Origin: Tetraselmis striata | Lineage: Eukaryota > Chlorophyta > Chlorodendrophyceae > Chlorodendrales > Chlorodendraceae | Direction of reading: 5' to 3' | Assembly: GCA_006384855.1 (NCBI GenBank) | Contig: VCJN01000570.1 | Coordinates: 62,001-126,000 of the forward strand | Length of the DNA: 64,000 nucleotides | Part shown: positions 43,506-58,760 of the stretch, one piece after another | How positions within the stretch are numbered: position 1 is the first letter of the stretch | Layout: each line of letters begins with the position of its first letter | Translations under genes and position numbers: made by a program | The notes under the pieces: generated by a model | Told to the model about the DNA's origin: nothing | The model's database searches: none | The model's input: only the letters and a program-made list of their open reading frames with translations

Positions 43506-44730
43506 AAAGTTGAGTCTGGTTTTGCCAGTGATGAGCCAACATAGAGAGCGGTAGATTAACGGAGAAGGGGTAGCGCCATGTCACGAAGGGGGCACCGGAA
43601 AGGCCACCGCTGCGGAGTATTGCTGGACGTGGAAGTGGCGGAGGCGGGGCGCGATGTGACCGAAGAAGAACCACTTGCCAGGCGAAAAAGAACCACGTGC
43701 CATACATTGGGGTCGATGTAGTCCAAAACGACGTGGGAGTTGGTTGCCCACCCACCTTGGTAGCGGATGTGAGACAGTGGGACTCCGATGGCGCTAGCAC
43801 CTGATGTTGCATCTTTGCGAAGGCTGTGCAAACTCGAGAAAGTGCCGGTGAGAGGGGCAACACCCACGAGACGAACGGCCGTAGAGCGCCATTCCGACAT
43901 TGTAGCGGCAGCCCAAGACATTTGGAATGCTCGCTCGGGGTGACCGCCCAGAAGTTAGTTTCGGCCAAGGCAATAGGAGCCAGGGGGCAGACTGTACGTT
44001 GTCGACGACGCGGTGCGAGGGACGCGCAACGTGGGGGTGCTCCGACAATTGAATAAGCAGTACGCGTAGGTCGTTGGGGCCGCGCTGTCCGACGCGTCCC
44101 TTACTTCTCGCGGTACACATCATGTAGGGTGATGTTGTAGGCGTCGACGTGCACGTCCCGCACTCGGCATGACACGCTAGTAAGTCCTCCGTTGGCAAAG
44201 AACATGAAGTTGACAACCGAGGCCATGAGGGCTCGGAAGACGTAATGGTATTCGAGGGAGAGAGCAGATGCAATCAACTGGACCCGTTCAACAAAGTTGT
44301 AAGCGATATCAATAGGCAGAGGAACTCGCAAAGGGGCAGCCCCATGCGGCGTTGCCGTAGCGCAGCAAGCCACGACGCGCGGCGGTGAGGTACATGCTAT
44401 CCTTAGCTATCGGGTCGAGGTCGTGTAGCTCAAAGAACGTGTTGATTGCTGATAGGTAGGGCTGTAGTGACTTGGCTTCGATGTGACCCCTCTTACCAAT
44501 CCAAGCGACATACCGCACGACAAAAGCAATGGTCGCCTCCAGCGGACTGAAGTTCTCGGAGTCGTGGCAGAACTCTGCGAACCGAGACAGCCTGCTAGCG
44601 TAGCTCTTGAGTGTCTGAGCGGTGAGGGAGCTGGAGAGCAGTTCGAGGGTCCGGACCTAGCTCGTCTGAGCCGAACGCTTCATGCATGCGAGACCGGAGT
44701 GAAGCAGCCCCCGGGGCGACAGCTTCGCGG
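43506..44730 (-). pseudogene. Tyrosine recombinase of YR element 1
   Basis: Minus-strand recombinase of the DIRS-related kind. Core-binding domain: YVAWIGKRGHIEAKSLQPYL then SAINTFFELHDLDPIAKDS (about 44310-44480). Catalytic-domain start: SVVNFMFFANGGLTSVSCRV then HVDAYNITLHDVYREK (about 44101-44240). C-terminal motifs: SLHSLRKDATSGASAIGV and IRYQGGWATNSHVVLDYIDP (about 43690-43830), which carry the His-x-x-Arg and the catalytic Tyr. The parts lie in different frames and an in-frame stop occurs near 44650, so it is a pseudogene. The same core domain, still open, is encoded at 63660-64000. Confidence 0.85.
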
Positions 44731-48799: not shown

Positions 48800-49153
48800 T
48801 TGGTGATTTCCGATATCGCCTTCAGCTGCTAGCTCATGTAAATAATATGAGATAGCCTTCCCATTGCCTTTTCGGGTGGTTTCCTGATCGCCTTTTGCAG
48901 CTACCTCATATATTAAACAAAATATGAGATAGCGACTACCGACCATACGCGCGCCGGCGGGCGGTCAAGTGCTGCCCCCGCTGCTCAACAGTACGGCGTG
49001 AAGGGTCCGGTTTGAGTGTCTGGAGCCTTGCTTGGAATTTTTGGTCTTGCTTGGCTTGCTTGGCCTGTAGTAGTTTCGCTGTCCCACAGGAAACTCAGGG
49101 TGGTATCTTCTCTCGGCCGCGTTGCCGCTGCGTAAGGCTCGGAGGGCTACCAC
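48800..49153. other. Upstream region of the E3 ligase gene
   Basis: Contains the end of LINE-related DNA and two short repeats around AATATGAGATAGC (48841, 48919). The promoter is presumably in 48950-49150, with no assignable motif. Confidence 0.4.
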
Positions 49154-50729
49154 ATGAGGGACTTCGGACGGTCCACTGGGAGCCCGGCCGGCGGCGAGGG
49201 GCTGGCGCTGCTGCTGGGGGGAGACGGCGAGGGGGGCGAGGGGGGCGATCGCGGGCGGGGCGGCTCCTCCCCCGCGCCGGCCACCGGGCGCGGCATGCGC
49301 TTTGCGGCAACCTCGGGCGCCGCCGCCGCGGGGCGCTGGGACTCCGCGGACGTGCTGCGCCACGCACTGGACCTGCCGGGCAACCCTACGGGCGGCGATG
49401 GCGGCGGCGGCGCGCCGCCCGCGCTGCTGGACGCGGCGGGCGAGGTGGACTTCACGGCGCTTATGGCCCAGGTGGACGGCAAGCTGGCGGGGCTGTCGGT
49501 GGCGCCTGCGGAGGACGACGCCGGTGAGGGCAAGATCGGCACAAAGGTGATCCCAGCATTCCCCTCCGCCCTGCCCTGGGGGGATAAGGTAGCGGGGGCA
49601 GCAACCATGCGATTGGTACCCAGTCATCTAGCGCTGGAGAAGGGGCCATCTATATGTTTTGCCCTTGGGGAGGGTGTGGGGGAGGGGAAGGAGAGCCTCG
49701 CCTATGTCATGTTGGCGGGCCCGGCAGATAGAGGGGCTAGCGGTACAGGTAGAGTGGGCTTGGCTTGGCACTCACGCCAGGTGGCTGCGCGGCAGCGGTG
49801 TGCGGCAGGCTAGAAACAGTAAGCCTGCCGGCTCCTGCTGGCTGACCGCCCGCCCCATTGCGCTTCCTTTGTGGGGAACCACGTTGCCCAGGTGGTGACC
49901 ATGGACGCGGCGTCGGCGGCAGGCAGCATCCGCTTCTCAGGGAACCACCTGGCGATAGAGAGCCTGAGCAACTTCAGCAGCGCGCGCGCCACGGCGGCGG
50001 TGTACAAGGGGCGTTGGCTGTACGAGGTGACGCTGGGCACAGCGGGCATCCAGCAGCTGGGGTGGGCCACGATGTGGTGCCCCTTCACCAACGAGGAGGG
50101 CGTCGGCGACGCGGTGGACAGCTACGCGTACGACGGCAAGCGCCGCAAGAAGTGGAACGTCAACTGCCAGCAGTATGGCGAGAACTGGGCGGCGGGGGAC
50201 ATCATCGGCTGCGGCATCGATCTGGAGAAGGGCGAGATCTCGTTCTTCCGCAACGGCGACCCCCTCGGCGTGGCGTTCAGCGCCGTGGCACGCTTCAGCC
50301 CCGGCATGGCCTATTTCCCCGCCATCAGCCTCTCGCATGGCGAGCGCTGCGAGGTCAACTTTGGCTCTCGCCCGCTCGCGTACCCGCAGCCCGACTACGC
50401 GCCCCTGCAGGCGCCGCCGCCCCCGCCGGAGGCCGCGGCAGGGCGCTACCTGATGGACAGCCTTGCCCGCTTTGCGCGCGTCACCGGGGGCGGTGGGGAG
50501 CCGGGCACCAGCGGCGTCGGCGGCGCGCCCTTTGACGAGGACGAGGCGGTGCTGTACGCAGGCACGCTCGCGTGCCGCCTGGGCCCGTTGCTGCGCCGGG
50601 AGTACATCGCGGTGGACGCGCTCGTGCCCTGCCTGCTGGACCTCCACCGAAAGGTGGGATCCCCCTGCCCGGCTCCCCGGGGCACTAGGAGGCAGTGTTT
50701 TTATTCGCTTGACAAGGGTGGTGCCGGGG

Positions 50730-50764
<35 letters not shown>

Positions 50765-53700
50765 CTGGGTGCGATCATACTGCGGAAGGATGAGCGGGGA
50801 AAGGAGCAGGTGGCAGGGGATCGGGGGCAGCTGGAAGCGGCGCGCTTTGTACACCCTGGCGAAGAGGGACGGTCAGCGGACCGCAGTGGGCCGGCGCATG
50901 GGCAAGCGCGTGCAGCACGGCTGGCAGCGCAGCAAGGGACGTTGATGGCTGTGCATGTGTGTGATTCCACGATTGCAGTTCACGGTTGTTTTTGGGGAAA
51001 TTGTGCGCTGGTCCGAGTGAGAGGCTGGGGCGAGGTACTGGGTGATGGTCGCGCTGTGAATGGCACCGTGGTAGGGATGGGTGAGGGGGGCGGCCCTGCC
51101 CTGGGCTGAGCCCCCACCTGTCGGCCCTGGCGCTGGCTGAGCGCAGTCCGAGACGCACGACCAGGCGTCCCTGCTGCGGGCGGTGCGCCTGCTGGAGGCG
51201 GCGCTGGAGCCGGAGGAGCTAGCGGCGGCCACGCAGCACGTGCTGCGCGAGCTGGCGCGATGCTGCCGCACCGCCAAGTTCTCGCCCGCGGACTTCCCCT
51301 GCACCGCCAGCTACCCCTTCCTCGCGCTCGCGCAGTGCCTGCTGACGTACGTGCCGGCGGTGCAGCGCGCCTGGCTGGACATGCCCGACCTGTGGGCCAA
51401 CCTGGAGAGCTTCCTCACGCGCAAGCAGCCCACCGCCAAGGACCTCAAGGCGCTGCTGCCCAGTGTGTGGTGGCAGAGCAAGTACGTCGACGAGGAGTGC
51501 TGCAGCGAGGAGCGCATGAAGGTCCCCCCCCCCCCCCCCCTCCTCCCCTCCCCCCCGGGGGAATGAGATACGGGAGGGGGAAGGCGGGCGTCGAGAAAGG
51601 GGGTGGCAGGGCCCTCCTCCCCCCCCCCCCCCCTGTGGGGGATAGGATCCGGGAGGGGGAAGCGGGTTGTCAACCTCCGGCAGGGCGAAAAGCTGTTCCA
51701 GACTGAGGCTTGTACTACTTCCACTCGAAGCTAACGGTGTAAAAGGAAGCAGTGTTAGTAGTGCTTCAAAGGGGGGAGGCGCATGTCGAGTCCAATCATA
51801 GCTTGCAAGCATGGGCACACAGTGATACTTCATATTTAGCATTACTTTGCTTTAAATCCTTACATATGTAGTTTAGTGTTACGGGTGCCGAGACGGTAAT
51901 GAGAATCCTTCAAACAGGAACCTGCACTGCCTGCCAGAGGTCAAATGTAGACGACAGACACAATATAGCGCAACTAGAGCGCTTGTTCTTGTAGGTTTCT
52001 AGCCACCTCAGTGTGATGCTTGTAGTGAGGGTTCTTGCAGGTGCGCCGGCACCGTAGTTACCGGTACTTGAATACCCGTAGTCGTTAAAACTGATTATTA
52101 CTCTGAATAACTTAGTCATTTAGGACACTGTCTAAATGTTTCCTTCACGTACATATATATGTGTGTACATATACATATATATGTACATATATATACGTAT
52201 ATATGTATATATACATATATATTATACAGTGTGGTTGATGGAGGCGGCGATGCGCCACAGCTCTTGACCGCAGGTGCAGCGCGCCTGACGGTTGTTGTCT
52301 GGCTGGGTGCCCCTCCACCGGCTGGCGCAGAGCATGAAGAACGCGCTGCAGCTGGCGGTGGCAAAACTGGAGGAGCACCAGTTCCGGCTGTGCTGCGTGC
52401 TGGCGGCCGTGCCCGCGGAGCGCGTGGCAGGCAAGGTGGACCTCGCGAGTGGCACGGGCCGGCAGGTCGAGCAGACGGCGCAGCCGACCGGCTTCTCCGT
52501 GTTTGTGCGCCACCTGTGCGCCAAGAACCGCGGCGCCACGCGCAACGTGCAGCCGCCGGGGCTGTCGGACAACAGCGTGCTGCTGTCGGCGTACTTTGTG
52601 CTGCTGCGGATGTTGAAGCCGCACCTGGACGTCGCGCCCAGCGCCGCCTCGGGCCTGGCGACCTTTCCCGCCCGGGAGCTCTTTCTGCGCGGCGCCCAGC
52701 CGGGCGAGTCGAACATGTACGCGGACCTGCCGCGCCTGGGGGGGACGCTGGGCCACCTGCTGAAGGAGCTGCCGGTGCCGGTGGGTGAGCTGGGGCTGCT
52801 GGAGGTGACAGCGGAGGGGGAGGGCGCCAGCTGCTCCGAGCCGGCGGGCAGCGTGCTGGCCGCGCCGGAGGTGCCCTACATGCTGGACGCGCTCATGGTG
52901 CTGTACCACCTCGGCATGGCCTCCAACTTCAAGGCGTACAGCTACCAGCAGCAGAACCAGCTGCAGGCGGTGCAGCAGCTGGAGGACGCGGAGCGCCGGC
53001 TGCAGCAGGCCAGCGCCGCGCCCAACGACCAGTGGGTGCGCCACCTCAAGGAGGCCAAGGCGCTGTTCCGCGAGGACGTGACGGAGAGCGTGCGCCACAC
53101 CACGTGGTACAAGGTGCCCCCCCCCCCCCCCGCCCAACCCCCAAACATGCCGCACAAGCGCTCATTCAACACGCGGCCCTCTCTCCCTCTTCCGCTGCGC
53201 CGCCCGGGCCCTGTCCTGCGCTGCCGGTGCCGAGCGCTCATGATCCCCCGCCCACCCGGCCCCGGCGCCGCAGGTGATGCTGTTCAGCGCCTCCAAGCGG
53301 GACGCCATCTTCCAGGCATGTGTGCACTGCGTGCGGCTGCTGCTGGTGCTGAGCCAGCGGCGCGTGCTCTTCTCCTACGTGCCGGAGTTCTACCTGGAGT
53401 CGCTGGTGGAGGCGTTTCATGCGCTCCGCCGCAACGGGGACTACGGCACGCTCTTCCGGCTGATGGACCAGGGGCTGCAGGAGGTGCTCACCTTCCTGGT
53501 CACGCACTTCAGCGACGCCCGCATCATCAACCCCGACCTGCGCGACGTGCTGCTGCAGAGCATCTCGATGCTACTGCAGTACCGCGAGTACGTGACCGCG
53601 TTTGAGCAGAGCCCCGTCGCGCGGGAGCAGCTGATCAGCAGCCTGCTGGCCGCCTTTGACGGCCGCTTCTGGATCCCCATCTCCACCATCCTGCTGCGCA

Positions 53701-56317
53701 TCATCAAGGGCCGCGGCTTTGGCCAGAACACACCCAAGGTGAACCTCCCCCCGGCCCAACATGCCCAGGGGCGCGCTCCCCTTGCCTCTTCCAGGCGTTA
53801 CGCCACAAGAGAAGCTGAAATCCTTGTAGCTATAGTAACGTACGTCAGATTCTAGTAAATACTTGTCTGGCCAACTGAAGCGTTGCCCTGAATTCTCGGC
53901 GCAAGCCTAAACCGAACCCCTTACGCCCTAGCTCCTGACTAAATGCTTGCACCGGCGCCCTAAACCCCAAATTTCATCCCTCAAGAGCCCCACGCTCATC
54001 CCTGGAATGAATCGGCTTCCGGTACCGGGAGTGCACTTGGCGCCAGGGTGCACTTCTCGTCCAGTCGCTCGATCGGCCCCTGCAGCTGCAGCTGCCGAGT
54101 GCCGTGCCGCAAGCGCGGCGGCGGCAGCGCTGACCCCCTTCCCGCCCGTCACGCCGCCGCCGTCCTGCAGGCGGCGGAGCTGGCGAGCCCGGTGTACCAG
54201 CGCCTGCTGCAGGAGGTGTGCGCGACGCAGCCCGACGTGTTCGACGCCTTCCTCAACCGCCTCTTCAACACGCTCAACTGGACCATCACCGAGTTCACCG
54301 TCGCGTGCAAGGAGCTGCGGGTGAGCCGTGGCGTGTAGTTGCCGTGCCGGGCGGTGCCGCGCACCACACCCCCAACCAGAAACGCACACGGATTAGCCAC
54401 CTCGCTCGTCTCCGGTGTTGCTCGGAGGGCCGGCCGGTCAGCTGCTGCGGAGGACTTACATGTGCGCGGGTGCCAACCCAGGAATACAGACACCGCAAGT
54501 TAGCCCACGCGACGCGTGCTCGAGGTCAAATATAGCGGAACGTCAGCAAATGTTCTGAGAGCTGGCATGCACGCCGATCGGGGCTAACCAATATGCCGGG
54601 TTGTTGCGGGTGTGTAGGCACCCGTACGTGGCTGCCGACGGATTCCCAATTTGGGCCTAGGAACCCCCCCGGGCTGCCGTCCCCCACCAGGCATCACGGG
54701 TGCCGACGCACATATAATATACCTTATAAGTTGGGCTTGCGTGCAGCCTCTAACGACGACATTCGCTTTAGTTCCCCTGTTGTAGTTTGGTCTATGTTTG
54801 ACCTCTGCCAGGCAGGGCAGGTTTCTTATTCGCAGTGACCTTAGTACCATGTCCGCACCCGTAGTAGCACGTGGGTGTACCGGCGACCACTGCCACCTTT
54901 AGGCCCAACATCCAACAGCTGTGTTGGGCCGAAGGGCATTGCAGTGCTTCACTCCCAGGGGAGGGCTGCCAGGTAGCATGCCAACTAGCGTGTCATCCGG
55001 GCTGCGGGCAATTCTGCGCCATGGGCGACTGACCATGGGCGACTGACCCGGCTGGCTGACCTCCCTGGCGTGGACCTCCTGGCCGCACAGGACATCAGCC
55101 AGGCGGGCGGCCGCCGCGTGCCCGACCTCCAGCAGCACCAGCGCAAGTGCACCATCATGTTTGAGCTGAGCGTCAACCTGGAGCGCATCCTGGAGTTCAT
55201 CAGCCTGGAGCTGCCCGCCGTGTTCCTCAGAGGTGAGGGAGGCTGCCTCCCCCCGCCCCGTGTCGTCCTCTCCTCCAGCTTTCAACTGAGCTCACGCCCT
55301 GTCGTGCGCCCCCCCCCCCCCCCCCCCCCCCCGGCCCTGGCAGGCTCGGCGCTGAACCTCACGCGCCTGGTGGAGCTGCTCGGCTTTGTGCTGAGCCACA
55401 CCACGACCGGGCCGGACGCGCACCTGCTGGACGCCACGCTGGCGATGGGCCCCGTCAACCTGGACAAGATCAGCCGGCCGGTGATCCTGGCGCCGGTGGT
55501 GGGCATCCTGGTCAACCTCTGGCGGGCGGGCACCTCGAAGGAGGGGCCGCGCGGCGCTGGCGGCGCAGGCGCGGCAGCTCGCGCCCGGGGCGCGGGAGCA
55601 CACCCTCACCGCCGCCCTCCTGGAGGCCGGCATCAGCTGCGGCACCGAGCCCTTCCGCTACCTCGGCCGCATGCAGTGGGCCGAGGCATTCCCCGACGAC
55701 GCCAGCCTGCCCGGCAGCCTGGCGGCGCTGAGCGGCTTTGTGGAGGTGCTGGAGGAAGCGCGCAGCGCAGCCGAGGCAGAGGCAAGCGGCGACGGTGAGA
55801 CCCCCCCCCTTCCCCCCCTAGCCCACATTGGTCGCCCTATCCTTTCCTCTCCCTGTCGACGCAAGCCTATGGGATAGATACGCTCCTATGGGATGATCCG
55901 CTCTCGGCCTCAATTTCTGCACCCGCGCTGGTGATTTGGTACCCTTCCCCTCTGCCCCTGGCCCACGGTTTTAGCTCTATAGGAGCTGCGCTGCCCGCCT
56001 TTTTACGGCACAGGCTGGCAGCGGTTGACCGGCAGCGGGCCTGGTGTTGGCTTGCCGCAGGCGGCGAGGACGGCAACGAGCCGCCCGACGAGTTTGTGGA
56101 CCCCATCCTGGCGTGCGTGATGCAGGACCCGGTGATCCTGCCGGACAGCGGTATCACCGTGGACCGGAACACCATCGAGCGCCACCTGTTAAGCCAGGAG
56201 ACCGATCCCTTCAACCGCTCCAAGCTCACGGTGGACATGCTGAAACCGGACACGGAGCTAAAGGCCAAGATCGACGCGTGGCTGGCCACCCGCCGCAGAC
56301 CTGGCCGCACCCAGTAG
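49154..56317 (+). CDS. KPC1/RNF123/RKP-family E3 ubiquitin ligase with C-terminal U-box, nine exons
   Basis: Large cytosolic E3 ligase. Family members target cell-cycle inhibitors. Exons: 49154-49523, 49923-50653, 51147-51521, 52331-53113, 53274-53738, 54171-54320, 55091-55232, 55344-55794 and 56061-56317. All introns are GT-AG with matching phases; about 1240 residues, the usual family length. The SPRY domain is ~126-278 ([20 protein letters not shown] ... KGRWLYEV ... [20 protein letters not shown]). The conserved KPC1 core is in exons 4-8 ([86 protein letters not shown]). The end (~1163-1232) is a U-box like that of UFD2/UBE4 ([20 protein letters not shown] ... [13 protein letters not shown]) where homologues have a RING. 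Exon 8 needs a one-base frame correction near 55543. Introns contain G29, C17, C15, C15 and C24 runs. Confidence 0.9.
50733..50761. repeat. G29 homopolymer in intron 2 of the E3 gene
   Basis: The longest G run of the window, 80 bp inside intron 2. Confidence 0.9.
52146..52235. repeat. TATATACA-type microsatellite in intron 3 of the E3 gene
   Basis: Same composition as the microsatellite at 19251-19335. It lies about 100 bp upstream of the exon 4 acceptor. Confidence 0.9.
55309..55332. repeat. C24 homopolymer in intron 7 of the E3 gene
   Basis: It lies 11 bases upstream of the exon 8 acceptor (55342-55343), where it takes the place of a normal mixed pyrimidine tract. Confidence 0.9.
56061..56317 (+). 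other. U-box-encoding last exon of the E3 gene
   Basis: A single exon holds the whole U-box and the stop codon (TAG 56315-56317). The domain has only one cysteine, so the RING zinc ligands are absent. The exon starts in the same phase (1) as the neighbouring exon ends, so the reading frame passes in cleanly through the spliced GGC codon. Confidence 0.85.
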
Positions 56318-56348
56318 CAGCCCTTGTGCGCCCAGAGACGCTCGGCAT

Positions 56349-56353
56349 TGTAA
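56349..56353 (+). terminator. UGUAA polyadenylation signal of the E3 gene
   Basis: TGTAA 32 nt past the stop codon, the same spacing as in RPS19. Confidence 0.55.
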
Positions 56354-56519
56354 GCATGTTGATCATTGGCGCCGTTGCTATATGCAACGACTTACCTCCA
56401 CCACAACGATGCACGCGTAGGGGGGCAGTCTCACAGCACATCGCGTGGCTGTCCTTCGCCTGCTTGCTCTCTCCTCAAATGCCATTGTTGAAGAGATCAT
56501 GAGGCAATGTGTTGGTAAC

Positions 56520-57120
56520 CTCACAGGGGGCGGGGGCGCTTCCAGGGGTGTGCAGGAGAAGTCGTGCCACAAAGTAACGGCAGTGTCTACTTGACGGACT
56601 CTCAGAACATCACTGAGGCAGATATCAGGCGCATGCGAGGCGGACCACGGGTGATTCACACGGTCTGCGAGATGTGCAAGCTCTGTCTCACGCGCGACAT
56701 CGATCTGCAGATCAAGTGGCTGCCACGTGAACACGCCCTCACGCAGTGTGCGGATAATGATTCCAAGGAGGAGGACCCACCGCGATGGGCGCTCAGCTCG
56801 TGGCATACCGAGCTCATCACGCAGCGCTGGGCAGGAGCAAACCTCGCGTTCCAGCAAAAACGGATTCTGGACGTATTCGGCGACGAGATCACCGCCAAAT
56901 CTAAGCATTCTTCTCACGAGTACTCTGCCCCGGCACATCGGGCATCGACGGGTTCACACAAGCATGGTTCACGGCAGCGGTTCCGAAGCCACTCTGCTGG
57001 GTCAACGGGCCGTTTACCCACAGGGCACGCGTCATCCAAAACATCATGGACGAGCGCGCCGGCGCGGTGCTGATCATCCAAGACTGGGTGGCGGGATGAC
57101 GGGCCATGCTCAGCGCCCTC
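56520..57120 (+). pseudogene. YR-retrotransposon RNase H and C-terminal fragment
   Basis: Plus strand, beginning within ~200 bp of the E3 gene's 3' end. RNase H-like motifs: SVYLTDSQNITEADIRRMRG, DIDLQIKWLPREHALTQCAD. The downstream block usual in DIRS-related polymerases follows (DVFGDEI, then in another frame GIDGFTQAWF, WVNGPFTHRA and MDERAGAVLIIQDWV). No RT precedes it. It faces the minus-strand recombinase at 57300-58760. Confidence 0.7.
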
Positions 57121-57299
57121 TCAATCCGCGACGCATTCACGCTGTCCGAGTAGGAGGTTGAGGGCACATCCCAGATGTTGTTCAGGCCAGGCTCACGGGT
57201 CCAGCGCAAGGCGCGCGAGGCGGGACTCAAGTATCAGCCGAACTATAACAACCAGACATCGAGGTTATCGCGATGTTGATCATTTGGGGCAACAGCGAC

Positions 57300-58760
57300 T
57301 AGATTTACGGTATGGCGCCAAGCGCACTAAACATCACAAATCTAGGTCTAGCAAACGCGTAAAAAAACTCATCCTCGGCATCAGAGATAGCCTCATCATC
57401 TGACCCCAGATCCGCCATCTGCACTAACCGATCCTGATGGCGGGCAGCATGGTGCACATAGCCAAAGGCCGTTTTCACATGGCGATGGCGCCCACGGGGA
57501 GGCCCCAGTAATGCTCTCACCTTCCGCCACAACATCATGCTACAAACGGCCGCGCTTCACGCCGTGCAACGTGTGGCCTTTATACATGCCAGCGGCACGC
57601 AGGTGATGACCCTTGAATCGGAGGTTCATAGCGGCACTACTGCTCATGCCATGGGCCCGAGATCCAGCAGGGCACCCATCCGCTAGGGGACGGAATATAA
57701 AGTCGACCAAGGGCCATCAGGCATCAGCCATGGCGGGCCGCATAGCGGTTCAAACGACGGGGCAGGCAAAGCGACTTGCTGACTGGGGGCAGCAACGGCC
57801 ATAACGCTGTTGTGCGCGGTGAGGTTCCCCTTGGTGCCGTAGCGGGGTTGCTGGGCCAAAACACGGGCTTCTACGGTCAAACGACCAGCGACAATGGCAT
57901 CCCACGCCGTCAACAGATCCACACCACGCATCAGGAAATTTGCCAATTCCATGGTGCCAGCCTCGAAGCCACGGGCGGCGGTTTCCGACAATAAATACAG
58001 CACGATGCAAACGTCGCGATGCACCGCAGCAATGATCACCCTGCCCAGTACTTTGCGTGCATTCTCCGGACGCTCTCCCTGTAACCAAAAAGTTCAATGA
58101 TCACCGTGTTAGTGGCGGCCCGCGAGATCAGTCCGTCCATAAACTGGACTAACCCCGCCAAGGTCGCGTAGTCCAAAGGCACGGTTCCACACTCCACGTA
58201 ACCCTAGCTTAGTCATGCCACGTTTGTACCCCCTCATGTACTTAACGACGTTCACAATAACATACAGCGCTGTTAGTTCTGTTTGTAGTGCGCTTTTGTG
58301 GAAGCCCTTATGTAATATATTATAACATACACCGGATTGGCGTGCTTGGGCACTCCCACCTCACGCAGGACTGTCGCCAGTTGCGACACTGCTTGCCGCA
58401 CATTTCCCGGGGGCGCAGGTCGGCTCCCGTCACGCATCGTCTTGCGCCCATGATGATGGCGATGCCAATATTCATCAAAGAAAATTAGCACGTCCCACTC
58501 GGCACATGTCTCGGGGGTAAGAGTCAACGGCGGCGGCACGGTGCTCGCCCAAGTCTCGAACTCGCGCAGAATCCCGCGACGGCGCTGGGTGGTCACATGC
58601 CTCTCGCAACGAGAAACCACCCGCACGGCGGAAGCCAGAGCAGCAGCCGAGCGAAGGGCATATTGCTGCACAGAAGCAGGGGCAGCCGCCACCTTAGAAA
58701 GCGCAAAACTGCCACCAGCACCGCGACCCCAATCACTCACACCCTGGGGCGCCAAGACAG
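57300..58760 (-). pseudogene. Tyrosine recombinase in inverted orientation (Kangaroo-like)
   Basis: Minus strand. The N-terminal core-binding domain is at 58335-58755 (RRRGILREFETWAS, ETCAEWDVLIFFDEYWHRHH, GNVRQAVSQLATVLREVGV). It continues as KYMRGYKRGMTKLG (about 58195-58245), then a helical region (57683-58039, ARGFEAGTMELANFLMRGVD), then a TLHGVKRG motif near 57560 at the place of the recombinase His-x-x-Arg. Frameshifts and stops are present. A 65-bp insertion (58267-58331) also splits the ORF. Converging orientation with the RNase H fragment on the left resembles Kangaroo of Volvox, whose recombinase gene is inverted relative to its polymerase. Confidence 0.65.
58267..58331. mobile_element. 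55-bp insertion with 10-bp target duplication
   Basis: The sequence ATAACATACA occurs at 58257-58266 and 58322-58331, flanking 55 bp that match 29441-29490 (GCTGTTAGTTCTGTTTGTAG ... GAAGCCCTTATGTA). Taking out 65 bp brings the recombinase frames on both sides into register, which confirms an insertion. It may be the 3' end of a retroposed RNA or a very short non-autonomous element. Confidence 0.75.

Follow-up and report, generated by a model that had tools for sequence, protein, structure and literature searches.

As far as the accessible text of the reports goes, human RNF123 and fly KPC1 combine an N-terminal SPRY domain with a C-terminal RING, the SPRY domain binds KPC2, and RNF123 deprived of its RING end is ineffective in HP1alpha degradation (PMC3471868, PMC7802972). 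The fly protein is given a length of 1332 amino acids (PMC7802972), and the numbering of the human constructs runs up to 1314 (PMC3471868). The Arabidopsis counterpart, RKP, is a RING-finger E3 according to the title of Lai 2009, an entry in the reference list of PMC8148538. The proteins of the UFD2/UBE4 family are described, in the portion of the text available, as a Ufd2P_core followed by a C-terminal U-box (PMC3087547). In the green alga Chlamydomonas reinhardtii, the accessible text of a 2015 survey names SPRY as one of 13 domains that occur together with the U-box in 30 CrPUBs (PMC4378952); a SPRY and U-box protein is already on record in a chlorophyte, with no link to KPC1 in that text. 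Among the matches listed in our search of the open-access literature, as far as their text was accessible, we found neither a description of a U-box KPC1/RKP nor a relation between the KPC1 core and the UFD2 core.

The window analysed here is the whole 64-kb stretch of Tetraselmis striata DNA at C448:62001-126000, in an assembly of 224,097,584 bases and 2903 contigs. Compared with PDB sequences, the rbcL of this assembly is closest to 1gk8 and similar chains, which are from Chlamydomonas, and thus probably comes from a chlorophyte. It contains, at 49154-56317 on the plus strand, a KPC1/RKP-type gene that we rebuilt as nine exons from open reading frames and splice sites. All eight introns in this model are GT-AG, and the exons show coding-type third positions (GC3 0.91-1.00). 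In our judgement, this is probably the KPC1/RKP (RNF123) orthologue of the alga, no other having turned up in the assembly, with the C-terminal RING replaced by a UBE4-type U-box. Its features, in window coordinates, are the following.

49154-49546, plus strand: exon 1, with the ATG, the N-terminal low-complexity part and then the start of an RKP_N-like stretch
49892-50653, plus strand: exon 2, containing the SPRY domain (about 50012-50368); GC3 0.93
51147-51521, plus strand: exon 3, GT-AG and in frame; GC3 0.98
52331-53113, plus strand: exon 4, in which the Ufd2P_core-like region is entered from about 52907
53274-53738, plus strand: exon 5, Ufd2P_core-like, with a PF10408 match of its own
54171-54320, plus strand: exon 6, in which the TPR_RNF123 domain begins at about 54246
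55091-55232, plus strand: exon 7, TPR_RNF123 domain, phase-1 end
55344-55794, plus strand: exon 8, in which the TPR_RNF123 domain ends; phase-1 end (GACG/GTGAGA), with a frame shift inside
55511-55568, plus strand: segment of exon 8 in which the frame breaks, or else a possible GT-AG intron of 58 nt
56061-56317, plus strand: exon 9, the U-box exon (AG/GC...TAG), with the U-box domain at 56084-56296; GC3 0.91
56349-56353, plus strand: TGTAA, a candidate polyadenylation signal directly 3' of the stop

Two details of this model differ from an earlier note on the same DNA. For exon 1, that note had used the donor at 49523 (GTGAGG), which breaks the frame; we prefer the donor at 49546, which is in frame with exon 2. 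Exon 8 had been treated as a simply open frame; in fact, the frame changes between about 55511 and 55568, which reflects either one extra base or a 58-nt GT-AG intron at 55511-55568. Taking out these 58 nt yields a fully open frame of 1239 amino acids (hereafter, the 1239-aa model). The TPR_RNF123 profile gives 162.0 bits with the 58 nt removed and 164.9 bits with an X at the one-base break, and therefore cannot separate the two possibilities. Past the break, exon 8 still reads the TPR_RNF123 domain, followed by an intact U-box (GC3 0.93 and 0.91). Runs of 15-29 G or C are present in the introns of the gene (50733-50761, 51524-51540, 51619-51633, 53117-53131 and 55309-55332), three of the five adjoining a splice site or lying at most 12 nt from one; such runs could accompany assembly indels of the kind suspected in exon 8. 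At the level of sequence, the U-box KPC1 is real, with a moderate dependence on one predicted splice.

The gene is flanked by other sequences of note. At 44312-44656 on the minus strand, 4.5 kb upstream, there is a match to the N-terminal SAM-like domain of tyrosine recombinases (PF02899, 26.8 bits), a possible mobile-element remnant. Just downstream, an open frame on the plus strand (56519-57073) has no Pfam match; we take it to resemble a retroelement RNase H stretch.

The classification of the gene as KPC1-type with a SPRY domain, proposed in the earlier note, is borne out by two Pfam domains encoded on the same strand. SPRY (PF00622) scores 97.2 bits in the 1239-aa model (E 9.3e-28), and TPR_RNF123 (PF25576) scores 162.0-164.9 bits over profile positions 2-198/200, against a cut-off of 27; on exons 6-8 alone, the latter score is 162.1 bits. 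The RKP_N profile (PF19322) reaches 15.9 bits in the 1239-aa model, under its cut-off of 27, and the N-terminal 304 residues gave no match in the NCBIfam scan. A sub-threshold UreF match in the same model (17.1 bits) was taken as chance. All three TPR_RNF123 matches listed for the genome (E up to 0.001) belong to this gene, and the only match of exon 3 DNA in the assembly is exon 3 itself; the gene appears to be single, no second copy having been found in the assembly. Scans for other eukaryotic KPC1 sequences, with the KPC1 core (exons 4-8) and SPRY in collections of genome contigs and viral contigs and with the U-box in the viral contigs, matched 16, 42, 1, 3 and 5 pattern stretches, none of which was confirmed as a relative. 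The cell-cycle role would be borrowed from animals and Arabidopsis by analogy; KPC2 binding and turnover of Kip/KRP inhibitors are further traits of the KPC1/RNF123/RKP family.

Exon 9 encodes an 84-residue stretch with one cysteine, and its identification as a UFD2-like U-box stands. It matches the U-box profile PF04564 with 103.5 bits (E 6.6e-30, positions 2-72/73), the top score among the U-box places listed for the genome, which number at least 58; within the 1239-aa model, the Pfam score is 97.2 bits. When the exon 9 U-box was compared with PDB sequences, UBE4A was the best match at 98.3 bits, followed by UBE4B (68.4-69.4 bits) and UFD2 (64.3-64.9 bits), with CHIP (28.9-35.5 bits) and PUB12 (28.1-29.1 bits) far lower; judging by these scores, the U-box is of the UFD2/UBE4 subtype. 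In the alignment with UBE4B, the DPFNR motif is kept and the DPL motif has isoleucine for leucine. We take the arginine of DPFNR to be the linchpin, and the isoleucine of the DPL position to be an E2 contact.

Where the members of the KPC1/RNF123/RKP family have a C-terminal RING, the algal protein ends in this one-cysteine U-box. When all six frames of the window were searched with one strict C3HC4 spacing pattern, no uninterrupted occurrence was found; the test is blind to intron-split RINGs and to RINGs of other types. The genome-wide profile searches covered the best-scored candidates and matches with E<=0.001, so that the 58 U-box and 54 C3HC4_3 places are lower bounds. Among the matches listed for the at least 54 C3HC4_3 RING places, one is on contig C448, at position 212993, on the other strand and 94.7 kb from the KPC1 gene.

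These searches also recorded U-boxes at other loci. Another U-box (C448:59674-59859, plus strand, 42.9 bits) lies about 2.1 kb before the window start, outside the KPC1 gene. On C2725, eight U-box places are spread over 82120-151422 with a spacing of about 5.5-11 kb and one TAG inside each match, a pattern suggestive of tandemly repeated copies of a U-box gene or element; U-box matches with one TAG are present also on C1568 (two), C655 and C990. Several U-box and RING places occur twice with equal scores, on two contigs (C70/C2729, C1810/C2372 and C2283/C2681 are examples), as would happen if both haplotypes had been assembled in part. Unlike these paired places, exon 3 of KPC1 is not doubled.

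A check for a separate UBE4 gene, suggested in the earlier note, found one. Of the eight Ufd2P_core matches listed for the genome, seven are on contig C880 and one is in exon 5 of the KPC1 gene. The C880 gene, with approximate exon edges, joins a Ufd2P_core of 586.7 bits over the whole profile (1-628/628) to a U-box of 97.6 bits, features by which it is recognised as the genome's own UBE4, separate from the KPC1 gene. We rejected the reading of the window gene as a plain UBE4, given its partial Ufd2P core (45-48 bits) and the separate UBE4 at C880. Among the matches listed, the UBE4 U-box is the closest in the genome to that of KPC1 (60% identity over 50 residues and 56% over 55 residues); the other two matches beside the 56% one show 41-42% identity. 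Over 74 residues, the KPC1 U-box shares 42 with the alga's own UBE4 and 45 with human UBE4A, and the own UBE4 shares 43 with UBE4A.

The phase-1 boundary of the U-box exon, pointed out previously, is present and is matched at nearly the same place in the alga's own UBE4. In KPC1, exons 8 and 9 are joined in phase 1 across a 266-nt GT-AG intron, and the U-box exon opens with AG/GC GGC and reaches PDEF after 8 residues. In UBE4, the U-box exon starts at C880:52016 (AG/GC GAG, phase 1), with PDEF 11 residues past the split codon, and the preceding donor is CAG G/GTGCGG, the last exon base being C880:52514. With about 9 introns in 1239 codons, a rough estimate puts the chance of agreement in both position and phase near 2%, and the shared boundary supports exon replacement from a UBE4 gene. 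The U-box of UBE4 is split by a second intron, in phase 0, after NRQPLK (C880:51838/51412), which the KPC1 U-box lacks; hence the exchange, if any, was old, or else the introns changed later. This intron, together with the greater proximity of the KPC1 U-box to human UBE4A (45/74) than to the own UBE4 (42/74), makes a recent copy unlikely, so that the donor would be an ancient one, and the 42 of 74 residues shared by the two U-boxes likewise suggest an exchange long ago.

The core of the protein bears on its origin as well. Exons 4-8 match Ufd2P_core (PF10408) with 48 bits (E 8.7e-13) in two stretches, best over positions 174-388/628; in the 1239-aa model, the score is 45.1 bits and the best stretch comprises residues 703-899. 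Taken alone, exon 5 matches positions 286-388 (29.9 bits, E 2.6e-7) and exons 6-8 match positions 420-542 (17.9 bits, E 0.0011, under the cut-off of 20.4), so that the core segments follow the UFD2 order; the stretch in exons 6-8 overlaps the TPR_RNF123 domain, and exon 4 alone has no Pfam match. The match is thus partial, at 45-48 bits against 586.7 in the own UBE4. When the cores of KPC1 and of the own UBE4 were aligned locally and directly, the score was 91, a value reached by none of 500 shuffles (mean 39.5, s.d. 4.8, maximum 59); BLASTP aligned one stretch significantly (69 residues, 30%, E 2e-4) and three others without significance. Because a phmmer search with the KPC1 core matched no chain in the PDB (E up to 10), not even Ufd2, the evidence for the relation consists of the Pfam profile and the pairwise comparison. 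By these sequence comparisons, the KPC1 core is a remote relative of the UFD2 core.

The central claim of the earlier note, that the E2-binding module of this ligase was exchanged, holds in part. The UBE4-type U-box at the C-terminus, the separate UBE4 gene and the matching phase-1 boundary support it, but the cores are related, which makes retention of an old U-box a real alternative. SPRY, the RNF123-type TPR and the U-box are ordered on one strand, and the exons are phase-matched except inside exon 8. Since KPC1 carries a RING in both animals and land plants, replacement in the chlorophyte line is favoured on grounds of parsimony. Under this scenario, the RING exon(s) would have given way, early in that line, to a phase-1 exon derived from an ancestral UBE4. 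The swap may have been tolerable because the KPC1 core would itself be of UFD2 type, though diverged, and in UFD2 the core already bears such a module C-terminally.

The serious rival, although on balance we consider it unlikely, is that KPC1 and UFD2/UBE4 descend from an ancestor with a core plus U-box, so that chlorophyte KPC1 kept the U-box whereas the KPC1s of animals and land plants took the RING. Such descent would account for the match of the KPC1 core to Ufd2P_core in the UFD2 order and its alignment to the core of the own UBE4 at a score far beyond that of shuffles, for the C-terminal position of the U-box relative to the core in both proteins, and for the equal intron phase at nearly the same place; moreover, the KPC1 U-box is about as distant from the own UBE4 (42/74) as the latter is from human UBE4A (43/74). 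However, with a RING reported, in the text accessible to us, for animal KPC1 (PMC3471868, PMC7802972) and, by title, for Arabidopsis RKP (Lai 2009, in PMC8148538), retention would require that the RING was gained twice or that further losses occurred. Furthermore, the U-box stayed near UBE4 while the core strongly diverged (45-48 versus 587 bits), a disparity that a later import fits better.

Much less probable is the possibility that the U-box exon is part of a different transcript, or that the contig is misjoined, the true end of KPC1 lying elsewhere. The frame anomaly in exon 8 does reveal a flaw in the assembly or in the model at this place, and the join of exons 8 and 9 is predicted. However, the two exons are on the same strand, with matching phase across the 266-nt GT-AG intron and coding GC3, and TGTAA lies right past the stop. 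TGTAA is the usual chlorophyte poly(A) signal; on the plus strand, it occurs twice within 49000-57500 and 55 times in the whole window, and in the own UBE4 gene the first one comes 218 nt past the stop, so that the TGTAA at 56349 is supporting rather than strong evidence. The own UBE4 already has its own U-box. Between its flanking stops, the frame of exon 9 offers no ATG upstream of the U-box, the first Met (56120) being within it, so that a separate gene would need another upstream exon. The window also lacks an uninterrupted C3HC4 pattern, although an intron-split RING would escape that search. We give slightly less credence still to a decaying copy whose protein would lack the U-box, as the frame change between 55511 and 55568 might suggest if real: no other KPC1 gene turned up in the assembly, translation past the break still runs through the family domain and an intact U-box at GC3 of 0.93 and 0.91, and removal of the GT-AG segment opens the frame.

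If, as we favour, the RING was replaced by a U-box, the protein would act as a single-chain E3 (or E4), in which SPRY and the core would bind a substrate or adaptor and the U-box would dock a ubiquitin-loaded E2, probably of the UBCH5/UBC4 kind, with the DPFNR arginine kept. The RING and the U-box have a common fold, stabilised by zinc in the former and by salt bridges in the latter. A natural exchange between them in an otherwise conserved ligase would, if true, imply that the E2 module is interchangeable on the KPC1 scaffold. The relation between the KPC1 and UFD2 cores would help to explain this interchangeability; it also recommends Ufd2 structures as templates for models of KPC1 and prompts the idea that KPC1, too, elongates chains in an E4-like manner. 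More tentatively, and with somewhat more doubt than confidence, we propose that KPC1/RNF123/RKP and UFD2/UBE4 are sister families sharing one ancient core with a C-terminal E2-docking module, and that this module was traded between them in chlorophytes as a phase-1 exon. Were this so, one scaffold that occurs with a RING and with a U-box would provide a natural test of whether the core or the module sets the chain type and the choice of E2.

Compared with the described systems, the algal protein resembles KPC1/RNF123 of animals and RKP of Arabidopsis, with which it shares SPRY near the N-terminus and the RNF123-type TPR adjoining the C-terminal module; its length of about 1240-1250 amino acids can be likened to that of KPC1/RNF123, for which the accessible text gives 1332 in the fly and human numbering to 1314. 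It differs from these proteins in having a U-box for the C-terminal RING and only a marginal N-terminal RKP_N match. With UFD2, UBE4A and UBE4B, it shares a C-terminal U-box of the same subtype and a remotely related core, but it possesses SPRY and the RNF123-type TPR, and its core scores 45-48 bits against 587 in the own UBE4. The SPRY-containing CrPUB(s) of Chlamydomonas likewise combine SPRY with a U-box; they are known from a domain list, and the accessible survey text does not name which CrPUB has SPRY and reports the combination with no mention of KPC1/RKP (PMC4378952). If the Chlamydomonas protein is the same protein, the joining of a U-box to KPC1 would be older than the split between Chlamydomonas and Tetraselmis striata.
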